Assembly (NCBI RefSeq): GCF_006475605.1
Contig: NZ_SSBC01000010.1
Location: forward strand, 558,001 to 622,000
Direction of reading: 5' to 3'
DNA from: Asticcacaulis tiandongensis
GTDB taxonomy: Bacteria; Pseudomonadota; Alphaproteobacteria; Caulobacterales; Caulobacteraceae
DNA length: 64,000 nucleotides
A program made the position numbers and the translations under genes. Positions 54,880 through 62,470 of this stretch are shown one piece after another. Under the pieces are notes generated by a model. That model did not search any database, was not told the DNA's origin, and saw only the letters and a program-made list of their open reading frames with translations. Positions within the stretch are counted from its first letter, which is position 1. Each line of letters begins with the position of its first letter.

Positions 54880-55481
54880 TGACCGTGCGGCGGCTGTACT
54901 TACCCGGTGCCTCAGGCGATGCCCGGATATGGCAGCCGCTGTCCGACCTTTTGCCTGAGGCCGACAGCCGTTTCATCAGCTGGCCGGGCCTCGGCAACCA
55001 GCCACATGATCCCGCTATTACCGGTTTTGACGCCCTCACTCCCTTAGCCGAAAGTCATATGGGGGATGGGCCGGTAGATATATTCGCCCAATCCATGGGC
55101 GGGGTTATCGCGCTGCATCTGGCGCGCAAATACCCGAAACGGGTACGCAAACTGATTCTGGCGGTGACCTCGGGCGGCTTTGACATGAGCGGCATAGACC
55201 GTTTCAACTGGCGACCAGACTATCGCCGCAATTTCCCCAATGCTGCAAACTGGATAACGGACTATGCGCCACCTGCGGCAACCGACTTGCCTGATGTCAC
55301 CCAGCCCTGCCTTTTGCTGTTCGGTGACAATGACCCGATAAGCCCCGTGGAAACCGGATACCGCCTCAAATCCATGCTGCCGGATGCACGGCTATATATT
55401 GTCTCCGGCGGCGCACATGACCTGATCCATAGCCACGCCAACCATCTGGCGCCGGTGGTTAGTGATTTCCTGAAGGCTTAG
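54879..55481 (+). CDS. Alpha/beta hydrolase
   Basis: A 200-residue hydrolase, a second alpha/beta type: YLPGASGDARIWQPLSD, nucleophile in DIFAQSMGGVIALHLARKYP, aspartate in FGDNDPISPVE and histidine in SGGAHDLIHSH. It starts on the last base of the upstream hydrolase stop and overlaps the convergent anmK by 23 bases. Members include esterases and lactonases; the substrate is not inferable. Confidence 0.8.
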   Translation: MTVRRLYLPGASGDARIWQPLSDLLPEADSRFISWPGLGNQPHDPAITGFDALTPLAESHMGDGPVDIFAQSMGGVIALHLARKYPKRVRKLILAVTSGGFDMSGIDRFNWRPDYRRNFPNAANWITDYAPPAATDLPDVTQPCLLLFGDNDPISPVETGYRLKSMLPDARLYIVSGGAHDLIHSHANHLAPVVSDFLKA

Positions 55482-56580
55482 CCAAAATACCGCCCGTCAG
55501 AGACGCTTTGACCCCCGTTGTTTTCGGATACGAAATCGGCAAGCCCCTCACCGACCGCGCTGCCATATAGGCGAAGGCTTCAGCTTCAATCGCTCCACCG
55601 CGCCAGCCCATATCTTCGGCAATTTTCACTGGCCCCAGATCGCTCAGGCGTTGACGCAACACCTTGACCAGATGCGTATTATTTCGCCCCCCACCACACA
55701 AAAAAATAGCTTGCAATTTAAAACCAAACTTCTCGATTTCATATCGCAAGCTTTCCACCGTAAAGCTCATAAGCGTGGCCATACCCTCTTCCAGACTTAA
55801 GCTCTCAACCGCCTTAAGCGTGAAATCATACCGATCCAGAGACTTAGGCGCAGACGCCTGAAAATAAGGATGCGCAAGATACTGTGCGACAATATCTTCT
55901 CGCGCCACGCCACGCGCCGCCACGGTACCGTTTTCATCAAACAGCTTGCCCGTATGCTGCCGCATCCACTGATCCATCAGACCACTGGCCGGACCGGTAT
56001 CAAGCGCATAGAGGTCATCTTCGGTAATGACCGTGATATTGGCCACGCCCCCCAGATTGACAACCACGACCGGCAGGGCAACACCCGCCGCCTCAACCAG
56101 CGCACGATGATACACAGGGGCCAGAGGCGCCCCCTCACCGCCTGCGGCCACGTCTGCGCTACGGAAATCGGACACCACGGGCACACCTGTCAAATCTGCA
56201 AAGCGCTGCCCGTCAAAAAGCTGAACCGTGCGCCCATTAACACCGGCTATAGGGCGCTCATGCAAAACCGTCTGGCCATGCACGCCCAAAAGGTCGAAAT
56301 CCGCCAGATTCAAACCGTTCTCAGTCACAAAGGCCAATAGCGACTGATGGTGAAAATCAACAATCACCCGCCGCGCCTCATTGAAAATCTCAGGCTCAGG
56401 CGTTTCGCGCGGCCAGTTCAACGCCGCCTGAGTCGCCGCCTCGATCACGCTGCGTATCTCCGACGGCATAGGCTTTTCGGCGAACGGCCCGAACGTCACT
56501 TGCGCTTCACCATCGGTTTCCAGAACCGCCATGTCGATCCCGTCAAGCGAGGTGCCGGTCATAAAGCCGATAATTTTCAT
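55459..56580 (-). CDS. anmK: Anhydro-N-acetylmuramic acid kinase
   Basis: Phosphorylates and opens 1,6-anhydro-MurNAc during peptidoglycan recycling. The 373-residue protein begins MKIIGFMTGTSLDGIDMAVLETDG, has VGVHGQTV-like LLGVHGQTVLHERP, DFRSADVAAGGEGAPL and the LNLGGVANIT-like VVNLGGVANITVI motif. Length fits. It lies divergent to tyrS, 77 bases apart. Confidence 0.93.
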   Translation of the reverse strand: MKIIGFMTGTSLDGIDMAVLETDGEAQVTFGPFAEKPMPSEIRSVIEAATQAALNWPRETPEPEIFNEARRVIVDFHHQSLLAFVTENGLNLADFDLLGVHGQTVLHERPIAGVNGRTVQLFDGQRFADLTGVPVVSDFRSADVAAGGEGAPLAPVYHRALVEAAGVALPVVVVNLGGVANITVITEDDLYALDTGPASGLMDQWMRQHTGKLFDENGTVAARGVAREDIVAQYLAHPYFQASAPKSLDRYDFTLKAVESLSLEEGMATLMSFTVESLRYEIEKFGFKLQAIFLCGGGRNNTHLVKVLRQRLSDLGPVKIAEDMGWRGGAIEAEAFAYMAARSVRGLPISYPKTTGVKASLTGGILAKPSGNH

Positions 56581-56657
56581 CTGAAATACCTATGGAAAAG
56601 CAAGGTGCGCATGGTAAAGGCACAGTCGTATTCCATAACGCTTTCAAGTAAAAGATC

Positions 56658-57911
56658 ATGACCACCTTCAAATCCGATTTCCTCAACATCCTTCAATCGC
56701 GCGGGTTCATCCACCAGTGCACGGATGCGGAAGCCTTAGATGCTCAGGCTTGCGCCGGAACCATCACGGCTTATAGCGGATATGACGCCACAGCCTCGTC
56801 GCTGCATGCGGGCCATCTGGTGCAGATCATGATGCTTTACTGGCTGCAGAAGACCGGTCACCGTCCGATCGTCCTGATGGGTGGCGGCACCACTAAGGTC
56901 GGCGACCCTACCTTTAAGGACACGCAGCGCCCGCTTCTGACCGACGAACAGATTCAGTCCAATATGGACGGCATCAAGTCAGTGTTCACCAACTTCCTTA
57001 CCTTTGGTAACGGCCCGACCGACGCCATCATGGTCAATAATAACGACTGGCTGTCCGAATTCGGCTACATCGAATTCTTGCGCAACTTCGGCACGCATTT
57101 CACCATCAACCGCATGCTGACCTTTGATTCCGTCAAGCTGCGCCTTGAGCGCGAACAGCCAATGACCTTCCTTGAATTCAACTACATGCTCATGCAGGCC
57201 GTTGATTTCCGCGAACTGAATTCCAAATATGGTTGTGTCCTGCAAATGGGCGGCTCGGATCAATGGGGTAACATCGTCAACGGCGTTGAACTGACGCGCC
57301 GCCTCAATCAGAAGCCAGCCTTCGGCCTGACAACCCCGCTTCTGACGACCGCTTCGGGAGCCAAGATGGGTAAAACCCTGGGCGGGGCTGTATGGCTCAA
57401 TGCCGATGCCTTGTCGCCCTATGACTACTGGCAATACTGGCGCAATGCCGAAGACGCCGATGTCGGTAAGTTCCTCAAACTGTTTACTGATATTCCGCTC
57501 GATGAAATTGCTCGTCTCGAAAAGCTTCAGGGCGCGGAAATCAACGAGGCCAAAAAGATACTGGCCGATGCCGCGACCCGCATGGTGCATGGCGAAGCCG
57601 CTGCCCAGACGGCACGCGACACCGCCCAAAAGGCGTTTGAACAGGGCGTGTTGTCGGCGGACCTGCCGACGGTTGAAATTGCCCGCAGCGATCTTGAAGC
57701 CAGCATCATGCTTGCGGCTCTGGCGACCCAGATTGGCCTGACCCAGTCAAACGGCGAAGCCCGTCGTCTGGCACAGGGCGGCGGTCTGCGGGTCAATGAC
57801 GCGGCCATCACCGATGGCAATCAGAACATTACCCTGAACGACCTCAATAGCGATGGCGTCATCAAGGTCTCACAGGGCAAGAAAAAGATCGTCCTCGTAA
57901 GGCCAGTCTGA
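56658..57911 (+). CDS. tyrS: Tyrosyl-tRNA synthetase
   Basis: Charges tRNA-Tyr. The 417-residue class I enzyme shows the HIGH-like HAGH in [10 protein letters not shown], the tyrosine-site GGSDQWGN, and the KMSKS-like KMGKT ([12 protein letters not shown]). The C-terminus has an S4 domain ([17 protein letters not shown]). Standard length. The next gene, a DenV-like glycosylase, starts three bases after the stop and is probably co-transcribed. Confidence 0.96.
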
Positions 57912-57913
57912 TC

Positions 57914-58297
57914 GTGACGCGGATCAACTGTGTCCCCGTGACAGAACTGAGCGGCCCGCATCTGGTGGCCGAATATCGCGAATTGCCGCGTATATTCGCA
58001 CTGGTGCGGGCGGCCTCAGGCCGTGGCGAAACGCCGGATGATCCGCGCAACCCCCGCACCTATGTGCTGGGCAAGGGGCATGTGCGTTTTTTCTATCCGC
58101 GTCTGGGCTATCTGGCGACCCGTCAGGCGCAACTGATCGCGGAAATGCAGGCCAGAGGTTATCAGCCCAGCTTTACCAATCCTTCGGAACTTCTGAGCGG
58201 CATAGATGCCTGCTGGTGCGGAGACTGGCAGCCGGACGATCGCGCCTTAAGCCTCAATCGCGCCCGTATCGCCGAGCGCACGCCAGCCAAAACCTGA
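57914..58297 (+). CDS. Pyrimidine-dimer DNA glycosylase, T4 DenV family
   Basis: A 127-residue homologue of phage T4 endonuclease V, which excises UV cyclobutane dimers by a glycosylase/AP-lyase step. The alignment is ungapped over the start: Thr2 (nucleophile after Met removal), Arg22 and catalytic Glu23 in AEYRELPRIF, and later GKGHVRFFYPRLGYLATRQAQLIAEMQARGYQPSF against the T4 GAGHVTFFY region. The start is GTG 57914. It follows tyrS after two bases and ends against the convergent AsmA-like gene. Repair context with radA and parE is notable but not adjacent. Confidence 0.88.
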   Translation: MTRINCVPVTELSGPHLVAEYRELPRIFALVRAASGRGETPDDPRNPRTYVLGKGHVRFFYPRLGYLATRQAQLIAEMQARGYQPSFTNPSELLSGIDACWCGDWQPDDRALSLNRARIAERTPAKT

Positions 58298-61200
58298 TTA
58301 TTTCCCGTCTTCGACAGGCGCGAGCAAGTCCGGCTGATCCTTATCCAGCAGACGCCGGAAGAAACCGGGCAAGACCAGTGAGAACGGATCGATTTCCGCC
58401 TGAGGCGCATCAGCATGACCTCTCAGACGATACTTGATCCCCAATACGCCTTCACCACGGCTTGAGGTCAGAAGCTCCCCCACAAGCGGCACCTGCGAAA
58501 AGGCGGCGTTGACGCCATAGGCCGGAATAAGCGTCCCGTTATAGTCAACCACATTGGCCCTGGTATCCATTCCGCCCCGGATATTGATGCGCAGGGCCTC
58601 GCCCTTGGCCCAGCCGTCACGAACAAACAGGAAATTATCGCGGTAACGCACAGGAAATTCATAGTCGGAGAAACCGATCCCTTCACCGGTCAGCGTATCC
58701 GAAAGCCCCTGCAATGACGCCAGTGACAACAGCTGCCCCAGAAAAGGTATCTGGCTGACCCGAATATCCTCGCCTTTCAGGGTCGCATCCACCTGACCAT
58801 TGCGATAGACGCCATTCATCATCAGCGTCCCGCTGCGTAAGCGCCGGTCACCGGTGGCTGTATAGAACAGATCCCCGACATCATCCGCCATAAAGGTAAA
58901 ACGGCTCAGATCAGCCTCAGGCCGGAGTGTCAGTGAAATCTGATTGTTATTATCCGTCAGGGCCTTACCCTCACCGCGCAAGCTATTAAGGCCGTCCCAT
59001 TCACCCTCAAAACGTACATCCCTGAAGGTGCCGTCACCGGCCAGTTTCAACCGGTCAAGACTGAGTATGACCCGTGTCGGCAGTTGCGGAACCACGGGCA
59101 CAGGTTCCGGCACAGTCAGCGGTTTTGCCGCCCCTCGCGCATTCACCACGGTCTTGGTCTTTGCGGGTTTTTGCCAGGGCCGCATATCCATCAATGCGCC
59201 CTTTACGGATATTATCCGTGTTTGCGGCTCACCGACCTGATAGACCTGCACGCTGCCCTGCATCACATCCTTGAGATAAAGGGTCGAAAAATCAGCAAAA
59301 TCCAGATCACTATCGGCCCCGAGTGCCGCACGACCTTCGACGGCAAACCGCTCACCTGCTCCCTGAATACGGGTCATATTGACCCCGCCTTCCGGCCCAC
59401 CCTCGTCAAAGCTGAAATTCAGGCTTGCGGCCTCTCCAACCGGCTTTACCCAGTCCGCCCCCCCCAGCCTCAGTTCCGCATTCCGGGCATCCAGATTGAG
59501 TACCGCCGCTGACACCTCACCGGTTGATATCGCTCCTTCGGTCGTGTTTTCGGTCTGATAAAGGCTAAGCTGCTGAGCGACGCGCCCGTTGACCTCAAGC
59601 ATATGGCCGCGATAGCCGATCTGCCTCAGGAAGGCTCCGTCAATATCGGCACTGATGGTCGCCCAGGGCTGAGGCCGGTTCGTCAGAACCATTTCATCCA
59701 TATCCGGCAGGTCAAAAAACACGTCCTGTGCATTCCCCAGACGTGCCCGTCCCTTTATGCCGCGACGGTCCTGCTCCCACAGGGCATCGACCTCAAGATC
59801 AGCCAGAGGCGTGAACCAGTCTTCGGGCAGCCCCAAAAGATGCAGATCATGCGGCGTCAGTTTCGCCTTAAGCGTCCGCGTCGGCTCGTCATCCATATCC
59901 ATGTCCGACCAGCCGAGCACCGCATTGATGGTATCGAGGCGGATAAGGGCCTCTCGCGAGTCGGCATCCAGCCCGATATTGACGCTCAGGCGGCGGGGTT
60001 TGTTAAATATGGGCAAGGCCCCTATGCCCAGCAAACGCGCCCGATCCGGCGTGATCAGCGCATTATAGACCAGACGCGGATTACGCCCTTCGACATAGGC
60101 CAGTTCACCGGTAAACCCTTCGGCCTGCAACTGCCCGCTCCAGACATCGCCTGAGCGCATCAGATATATTTCGGTCGGAATTTCCGGTTTGAAGCGGGCA
60201 AATATCGGCAGCCCCTGCCCCTTCATGCCCGCCGAAAGCGTGGCCCCGTTCAGCGTCACCCGGTTCGGGCGGGCGTCAGTGCCGCTCCAGTCCACGCGTC
60301 CGTTGAAAATATCCGAGGCGATAGTACCGGTGCCGATATTATTGGCCAGTTCCAGATTACCTTTAAGCGCCACCCGCCGCGTCGGCGAGCCCCCAAACTG
60401 ACGGGCATTAAAACTGCCGGTGAAATCGATAAAGGACTTCGGGCTTTCAAAACCGGTACGGAACCCGATTTCGCCACGATAAGGCCCGACATCCGCAGGG
60501 CCGCGCACCTCAATCACATCATCGCGCAAATCCCCCCTCAGCTTAAGCTCACCGTTGGTGAGATCCCACCCAAGCGCCGCCTGCCTCAGAGCCCCATTAC
60601 GGATATCGGCCTTAAAGCTGATGTCCATGACGTCATAATTCAGCGGGCTGGCAAAGCTGACAAAGCCAATATCAACCCGAAAGTCCGTCTCACCGGATAA
60701 ACGGTCTCGCGTCAGCCCCTGACGCGCCAGCTGACCGCCAGTGAGCGGGTCGACAATCTCAACCGCCCGCACCACATCGCCGCCACTGGTCAGCCATATA
60801 TGGGTACGCCCCTTATCGGCCTTGTCAAAGCTTTCGACCGAAACCCGACCGTCCTTAACCGGAAGCCCCCCCAGTTCTCCACCGGCAATACTCAGATCAA
60901 AACTGTTGCCCCGCAAATGCCCCTGACCCCGCACCCCTTGCGCCTTGGGCAGGTCATCATGCACCAGCAAGGCCATGTCGGCATAATCAAAGGTCAGATC
61001 GAGGTGCTCATCCTTAAGGCCGTTTGACCGTAAGCTGCCCGGCGGGGCCTTCAGGGTGAAACGGGCATTGGAATAAACTCCGCCTTCGATGCGCCGGATA
61101 AGATCGGCCCTGAGCACAGAGGTCAGGGTTTCCGGCCAGAAGGCAAACACCTGTTCCTTGGCAAATTGCCCCGAAACCCGCGCCTTGAGTTCCGCGCCCA

Positions 61201-62470
61201 CCTGCCCCTTGTCGTCCGTATAGACAAAGCCTTCGGTATGTAACGGGGCATTATTCAAAAGGCCCCGCCCTGACTTGATTTCCAGACGCTGACGTTCGGG
61301 GATATAGGCCCCGATAAAATGCACGTCCCTCAGTGTCTGAGCCGGAAAATCCTCTGCCAGATGCCCTGATATTCTGGGCCCATGAAAGTCAAAGGCAATG
61401 CTGTAGGGCGCATCCGCCGCCTTGTTCTCCGGCACCAGCAAGACCGTACCTTTTAAGTCGGTGTCCAAATGATGCGTCTGCAAACGGAAGGTCGAAAAAT
61501 TAATCGCCTTTTTTTCAGGCAGGTAATCCGCCCTGGCCTCAATCGCCTCAAACGGTTGCCGGTTGGTGCCAAAATCATAGCTGCCTTGACCGGCGCTTAT
61601 ATTCAGTGATGCTTTTTCGATACCTTTGGCCGTGCTGTAACTTAAGTGGCCCGTACCATTTACCGTGGCCTCAAGCCTAGACAGGGGCCGCGTTACCCCA
61701 ACGCTCGGGAAAATATCCGAAGGCACCAGATCCTTGATATCGACATCAAGCTGCGCGGTTTTAAGCTCCGTCTTGGAAACAGCCCTGGCGCTCAGGTAAG
61801 ACCAATGCCCGCCCGTATCGACAGCCAGACCAATTTCCGCCCGCACATCATCGCGCTTTTTGGAGAAATCAATCCGCGCCACCTCGGCACGCCAGTTCAG
61901 ATCAGTGCCCACCTGACCAAGGCGGATAGAACCGTCCTTAAGGCTGAAGGCGCGTGTAAACGACACCGGACGGCCCAGTTTCTCATCCCCCGTCAGATCA
62001 CGGAAAATCTCGTCAATGGCAAAGGCTTCGGGGTCACCACTGGCGTCATAGCCCAGTTCATAACGCCCTTCAGGCGATACGGACAGGACGATCTCAAAAC
62101 CTTCGGCGGATATATGCGCCGGCGCGAGATGCAAAAGTAAAAGACTATCGAGGGCCAGCGCCGCCTCAAGCTGATCAGACGCCGCAATAGTGCGCTGCTT
62201 ATCGTCCTTAAGGACCAGCCCCTCAAAGCGTAGCCCCAGCGCATTGGTGTCGTGAAACCATACCAGATCAAGATGTTTCAGACTGGCGTCACTGCCCGGC
62301 ACCGTGCGCTCAAGGCGCGTAATAATGATATTTTTCAGGCCATCAATACGCACAGGCCCCTGCGCCAGACGTACACCGCCCGCAAACACACTCAGGATCA
62401 ATCCGCCTGCAAGACAAAGCTTCCACCGCCGTTTGATCGTACCGATTATTTTTATTACCAATGGAGGCAT
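58298..62470 (-). CDS. Large AsmA/YhdP-like (DUF3971) envelope protein
   Basis: A 1390-residue protein with one N-terminal membrane segment (about residues 18-34, LCLAGGLILSVFAGGV) and a very long periplasmic beta-rich region with repeated beta patterns, ending in the AsmA-like SRGEGVLGIKYRLRGHADAPQAEIDPFSLVLPG. YhdP and its relatives are bridge-like proteins proposed to carry phospholipid between inner and outer membrane. The Pro-rich end (LPGFFRRLLDKDQP...) is typical. Its stop abuts the DenV-like stop. The assignment to YhdP rather than another AsmA-like protein rests on length and the C-terminal motif. Confidence 0.8.
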   Translation of the reverse strand: MPPLVIKIIGTIKRRWKLCLAGGLILSVFAGGVRLAQGPVRIDGLKNIIITRLERTVPGSDASLKHLDLVWFHDTNALGLRFEGLVLKDDKQRTIAASDQLEAALALDSLLLLHLAPAHISAEGFEIVLSVSPEGRYELGYDASGDPEAFAIDEIFRDLTGDEKLGRPVSFTRAFSLKDGSIRLGQVGTDLNWRAEVARIDFSKKRDDVRAEIGLAVDTGGHWSYLSARAVSKTELKTAQLDVDIKDLVPSDIFPSVGVTRPLSRLEATVNGTGHLSYSTAKGIEKASLNISAGQGSYDFGTNRQPFEAIEARADYLPEKKAINFSTFRLQTHHLDTDLKGTVLLVPENKAADAPYSIAFDFHGPRISGHLAEDFPAQTLRDVHFIGAYIPERQRLEIKSGRGLLNNAPLHTEGFVYTDDKGQVGAELKARVSGQFAKEQVFAFWPETLTSVLRADLIRRIEGGVYSNARFTLKAPPGSLRSNGLKDEHLDLTFDYADMALLVHDDLPKAQGVRGQGHLRGNSFDLSIAGGELGGLPVKDGRVSVESFDKADKGRTHIWLTSGGDVVRAVEIVDPLTGGQLARQGLTRDRLSGETDFRVDIGFVSFASPLNYDVMDISFKADIRNGALRQAALGWDLTNGELKLRGDLRDDVIEVRGPADVGPYRGEIGFRTGFESPKSFIDFTGSFNARQFGGSPTRRVALKGNLELANNIGTGTIASDIFNGRVDWSGTDARPNRVTLNGATLSAGMKGQGLPIFARFKPEIPTEIYLMRSGDVWSGQLQAEGFTGELAYVEGRNPRLVYNALITPDRARLLGIGALPIFNKPRRLSVNIGLDADSREALIRLDTINAVLGWSDMDMDDEPTRTLKAKLTPHDLHLLGLPEDWFTPLADLEVDALWEQDRRGIKGRARLGNAQDVFFDLPDMDEMVLTNRPQPWATISADIDGAFLRQIGYRGHMLEVNGRVAQQLSLYQTENTTEGAISTGEVSAAVLNLDARNAELRLGGADWVKPVGEAASLNFSFDEGGPEGGVNMTRIQGAGERFAVEGRAALGADSDLDFADFSTLYLKDVMQGSVQVYQVGEPQTRIISVKGALMDMRPWQKPAKTKTVVNARGAAKPLTVPEPVPVVPQLPTRVILSLDRLKLAGDGTFRDVRFEGEWDGLNSLRGEGKALTDNNNQISLTLRPEADLSRFTFMADDVGDLFYTATGDRRLRSGTLMMNGVYRNGQVDATLKGEDIRVSQIPFLGQLLSLASLQGLSDTLTGEGIGFSDYEFPVRYRDNFLFVRDGWAKGEALRINIRGGMDTRANVVDYNGTLIPAYGVNAAFSQVPLVGELLTSSRGEGVLGIKYRLRGHADAPQAEIDPFSLVLPGFFRRLLDKDQPDLLAPVEDGK

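Follow-up and report, generated by a model that had tools for sequence, protein, structure and literature searches.

A phage-type denV gene in the tyrS/yhdP gap of Asticcacaulis tiandongensis suggests replacement of one UV-repair route by another

Endonuclease V of phage T4 (DenV, T4-PDG) acts through the amine of its Thr2, with help from Glu23, by way of an imine and a final beta-elimination. Older mutagenesis work made its C-terminal aromatic tail important in dimer recognition. Homologues of T4 DenV also occur outside phages: CV-PDG, encoded by the Chlorella virus PBCV-1, is reported to be active in repair (PMC7019647). Here we describe a denV-like gene in a 64,000-nucleotide stretch of the alphaproteobacterium Asticcacaulis tiandongensis (contig NZ_SSBC01000010.1; hereafter the window). 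The gene sits between two neighbours that are adjacent in most of the rest of the genus (Table 1), and the genome that carries it has lost a photolyase that most of its relatives keep.

Table 1. Features of the denV locus, in window coordinates
Feature	Position	Strand	Description
anmK, divergent left neighbour	55459..56580	-	NF007141 E 7.5e-131
tyrS	56658..57911	+	417 aa; TIGR00234 E 8.7e-112; position conserved in genus
Two-base gap (TC), tyrS TGA to denV GTG	57912..57913	+	
denV-like pyrimidine-dimer glycosylase gene	57914..58297	+	127 aa; GTG start; without C-terminal aromatic tail
YhdP/AsmA-like gene, convergent	58298..62470	-	1390 aa; PF13116 E 1.6e-18; conserved convergent tyrS neighbour in genus

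The original prediction, made from the sequence alone, was that this gene encodes a homologue of T4 endonuclease V, and domain matches, alignment, phylogeny and predicted fold agree on this point. The protein matches the Pfam family Pyr_excise (PF03013) with an E-value of 3.7e-13 and 50.1 bits, against a cut-off of 23 bits, and this is the only PF03013 gene in the genome. PHROG 1183, 'endonuclease V N-glycosylase UV repair enzyme', covers residues 1-126 (E 1.9e-41) and the T4 EndoV chain 2end covers residues 1-123 (E 2.7e-24). Thr2, Arg22 and Glu23, the residues named at the outset, align without gaps to those of T4 EndoV, as do Arg3, His16 and Arg26, and Thr2, Arg3, His16 and Glu23 are invariant in 33 relatives. 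The AlphaFold model (pLDDT 93.3, confident up to about residue 120) shows the all-alpha, single-domain EndoV fold; Foldseek matches it to 2end with an E-value of 2.2e-8, and the superposition gives a VIA Z of 18.9 and an rmsd of 1.8 over 125 residues, 41% of them identical. Thus, the denV product is a further member of an already known gene family. Its homologues open with (M/V/L)TRIN at the position of the GTG, from an ATG, GTG or TTG-type codon, which supports the GTG start; the ORF tool found no ATG, GTG or TTG upstream of it in the open frame. The GTG start two bases behind tyrS is as first described.

The gene is scattered, as had been expected. PF03013 is found in this genome only among the 25 sampled from the genus, in 1 of 249 genomes of the order and in 3 of 385 of the class, the two other matches there being weak. 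In a search of the phylum, most of the readable PF03013 matches (L166-L195) belong to another group that starts with MR(I/L)W, lacks the TRIN start and hence lacks Thr2; for that group 'pyrimidine dimer DNA glycosylase', as Pfam calls the family, may be a misnomer. The closest chromosomal kin of our protein come from Pseudogemmobacter, Pseudochrobactrum, Sinorhizobium/Ensifer, Brucella gallinifaecis and Shinella (67-74% identity in the best segment), followed by Alcaligenaceae and their kin (54-62%), and phages RDJL Phi 1 and 2 (64-68%) and IMG/VR contigs are also among the closest sequences. Two oddities turned up among these records. A Roseobacter MAG (contig PCCY01000018.1) has denV twice on this contig, at sites about 67 kb from each other (L021, L022); the copies are identical to each other and to those of an Ahrensia MAG (L020) and of viral contig L088, possibly through a repeated phage or a mis-assembly. 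In a record titled Bacillus subtilis strain SK6B4 (L009), denV and its flanks match Pseudochrobactrum, probably through a mistaken title or contamination of the assembly.

We placed the protein in an unrooted DenV tree of 92 rows and 134 columns, in which, with so few columns, many forks are unsupported. It belongs to a supported set of 30 rows (98/99), made up of alphaproteobacterial and phage sequences, and so falls within the DenV family, on a short terminal branch (0.17). A viral contig is the partner of the B. gallinifaecis copy, and another lies within the Alcaligenaceae clade; parsimony counts 8 host/virus changes over the whole tree. That phages passed the gene to alphaproteobacterial chromosomes more than once is not upheld, since monophyly of the chromosomal copies is not rejected (AU p 0.256) and a single clade is left possible. 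The suspected part of phages in the history of the gene does find support in its nearest relatives, which are interleaved with alphaproteobacterial phages. A single-gene transfer involving phages is likely, and the distribution, rather than a rooted tree, points to a phage as the donor.

Where did the gene land? With tyrS as an anchor to read the loci of the 25 genus genomes, we found that anmK, tyrS and the yhdP-like gene form a conserved block and that denV sits inside it here. The order of anmK and tyrS is the same in nearly all relatives, most of which also show the convergent yhdP-like gene in the fetched flank, and none of the 24 other genomes has denV at its tyrS locus. A short stretch separates tyrS from the yhdP-like gene in the 11 relatives whose intergenic sequence was read, and in several of these it holds GC-rich inverted repeats followed by T (e.g. 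AAAGGCCGG...CTGGCCTTTTT in L049), which by eye look like terminators. In this genome denV exactly fills that gap, so that its stop codon is directly followed, at 58298, by that of the convergent gene. (The tyrS of one relative, G023, is split into two adjoining frames at C1:1828856-1830101 (L072, L075), probably by a frameshift or an assembly error.)

The linkage of denV to tyrS is thus real here, but it does not extend to relatives. In fact, neither tyrS nor anmK nor a yhdP-like gene lies near any other denV locus that we fetched. The sampled neighbours differ between genera and are of chromosomal type (serine dehydratase, penicillin-binding protein, PLP enzyme, porin), and several copies follow an upstream gene closely or have a convergent gene just beyond their end. 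A conserved tyrS-denV pair is thereby rejected: on the genomes compared, the linkage is not ancestral and the site is a private landing place. We found no integrase or phage gene next to denV, and a prophage remnant is excluded by the lack of any adjoining phage gene and by neighbours that are conserved in the genus. Nor does composition mark the gene as foreign: its G+C content is 61.7% against 55.7% for the window and its GC3 is 66% against 59-70% for the neighbours, which is only mildly unusual. A scan of positions 56300-58700, of a kind that would miss non-sigma-70 promoters, gave no promoter-like match and no terminator-like match on the plus strand. Given this, the simplest reading would be that denV shares the transcript of tyrS, which probably starts at the tyrS promoter, and that its translation is coupled to the end of tyrS translation.

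The second half of the story lies outside the window. We counted photolyases through two domains only, PF00875 and PF03441, and each of them is present in 23 of the 25 genus genomes. The two without such a photolyase are this genome, which is 99.98% complete, and one that is 87% complete; with the sample limited to genomes of 90% completeness or more, ours is alone in lacking it. In relatives (ten loci read, some from the same genome) the photolyase gene is flanked by genes for a family-2 glycosyltransferase and a mercaptopyruvate-type sulfurtransferase. Our genome keeps both flanking genes at C10:402435-404096 (L231), with no photolyase between them: about 90 bases separate the two matches, and no photolyase remnant was detected at this syntenic locus. 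The best PDB match of the nearest relative's photolyase is 4u63_A, 'DNA photolyase' (2.4e-140), the Agrobacterium class-III CPD photolyase PhrA; the lost enzyme and DenV thus probably share their target lesion. A photolyase lost and a denV gained suggest that one UV-repair route may have replaced the other in this genome.

From these comparisons of sequence we consider it probable that a phage-type denV, acquired as a lone gene, came to lie in the tyrS/yhdP gap and took over dimer repair from the deleted photolyase. The gene would have taken the place of the intergenic stretch precisely, with tyrS on one side and the convergent gene on the other. By homology with the T4 enzyme, the Thr2 amine, exposed by Met removal, would attack C1' of the 5' pyrimidine of a cyclobutane dimer; Glu23 would assist in forming the imine, the base would be released, the abasic site would undergo beta-elimination, and ordinary base-excision repair would then finish the work. 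Since the ancestral photolyase was cleanly deleted, DenV would probably be this genome's dedicated dimer-repair enzyme, one for which light is not needed. Several points count against this reading: the missing C-terminal aromatic segment, a single swap seen in a single genus and, as set out below, a lineage-level association across the Rhizobiaceae that is weak and six denV hosts that do match photolyase. If gain and loss were independent events, their coincidence in one genus would be expected about 1 time in 24.

Independence is in fact what the most serious alternative, an unlikely one in our view, assumes. DenV would be active, but its arrival would have nothing to do with the loss of photolyase, which would reflect genome reduction; nucleotide excision repair would carry the load and denV would be an accessory passenger. 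At 3.2 Mb this genome is indeed smaller than any other in the genus sample (3.3-5.4 Mb). On the other hand, the gene block has been retained apart from the photolyase, and among the well-completed genus genomes the sole photolyase loss coincides with the sole denV gain. Evidence from beyond the genus cuts both ways. PF03441 is absent from 36 of 42 other denV-bearing genomes (six have a photolyase match), a figure that speaks against unrelated events. In the family of Sinorhizobium medicae the baseline is 243 PF03441 carriers in 395 genomes, and a photolyase is found in 2 of the 13 denV hosts assigned to this family by record name or, for Ahrensia, by presence in the family sample. The difference is significant by genome (Fisher p 0.001); counted as five lineages it gives p 0.08, a value that favours the unrelated-events explanation. 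So do the genomes of the genus Sinorhizobium, all 33 of which lack PF03441 and only some of which are known denV carriers, so that photolyase can be lost without denV. Thus, denV occurs mostly in genomes without photolyase, and across the Rhizobiaceae the association is weak by lineage. In the literature that we searched, where old T4 papers are thinly covered, we found no relevant paper on a trade-off between denV and photolyase.

A second alternative concerns the enzyme itself. The denV product ends in RIAERTPAKT, and the WYKYYG segment that closes T4 EndoV is missing; the protein of a close T4 relative ends in KPHWYKYYGKNIYI. DenV might then have shifted its specificity, for example mainly to abasic-site lyase activity or to other lesions, and dimer repair would not be its chief task. 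In line with this idea, a range of substrates broader than that of T4-PDG has been reported for the chlorovirus homologue (PMC7019647). We nevertheless find the shift improbable, since the six active-site residues are present and 125 residues of the model can be superposed on T4 EndoV, and since the tail-less form is widespread in phages and is annotated there as UV repair. In fact, the tail is absent from 83 of the 92 tree proteins, so that its absence is the common form and not damage. The WY-type tail of the other 9 marks subgroups, not the DenV family; it is confined to two groups, the T4-like phages with their relatives and a Prochlorococcus/Elusimicrobia/ACP17/Aeromonas-phage group. The confident part of the model and its fit to T4 EndoV also show that the predicted core fold needs no tail. 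In a further phage group (viral contigs L090, L091, L101-L103, L139; 152-157 aa in total) a longer C-terminal extension rich in Lys and Glu replaces the aromatic tail. A frameshift or misassembly at the C-terminus of our protein is rejected on two grounds: the sequence beyond the stop is that of the convergent yhdP-like gene, and all members of the clade terminate at nearly the same point. The literature searched, with the same thin coverage of old T4 papers, yielded no paper on the T4 tail's part in dimer recognition, no relevant paper on tail-less DenV and no characterised member of the large tail-less branch, a branch that would make this role of the tail directly testable. Finally, that denV is a decaying phage relic without function, as its single copy, sporadic occurrence in the genus and shorter length than T4 EndoV might hint, is very improbable given its intact frame, kept active-site residues, confident fold, short terminal branch, clade-wide short C-terminus and lack of adjoining phage genes.

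The preferred reading, replacement of photolyase by DenV, would make this genome a clear example from nature of one dimer-repair enzyme possibly supplanting another of unrelated mechanism; the insertion site and the deletion scar can both be read, and intact relatives are at hand for comparison. The possible swap is the interesting part; the private tyrS site, the missing tail and the matched photolyase loss go beyond the first observation. We envision, tentatively and with more doubt than belief, that tail-less, phage-derived DenV repeatedly replaced light-dependent CPD photolyase in proteobacteria. The gene would each time land alone in an intergenic gap, with photolyase lost or already absent, and photoreactivation would give way to light-independent base excision of dimers. 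If this were true, the present genome would show both halves of such a swap at base resolution.

How, then, does the gene compare with those already described? T4 EndoV shares its fold and its active-site set, but the T4 gene belongs to a phage genome, whereas ours is chromosomal, lies behind tyrS and encodes a protein without the WYKYYG segment. The endonuclease V proteins of the Roseobacter phages RDJL Phi 1 and 2 are closer, with 67.5% and 64.3% identity over 98% of the length, and are tail-less too; their genes, however, lie among hypothetical genes in phage genomes of about 63 kb. CV-PDG of PBCV-1, likened to the denV product by its description, differs in belonging to an algal virus. Further parallels are the denV-like genes of Pseudogemmobacter, Pseudochrobactrum, Sinorhizobium/Ensifer and Brucella gallinifaecis (65-74% identity), which are likewise tail-less, single and chromosomal, mostly in genomes without PF03441 photolyase, but these occupy other neighbourhoods and none of them stands beside tyrS.
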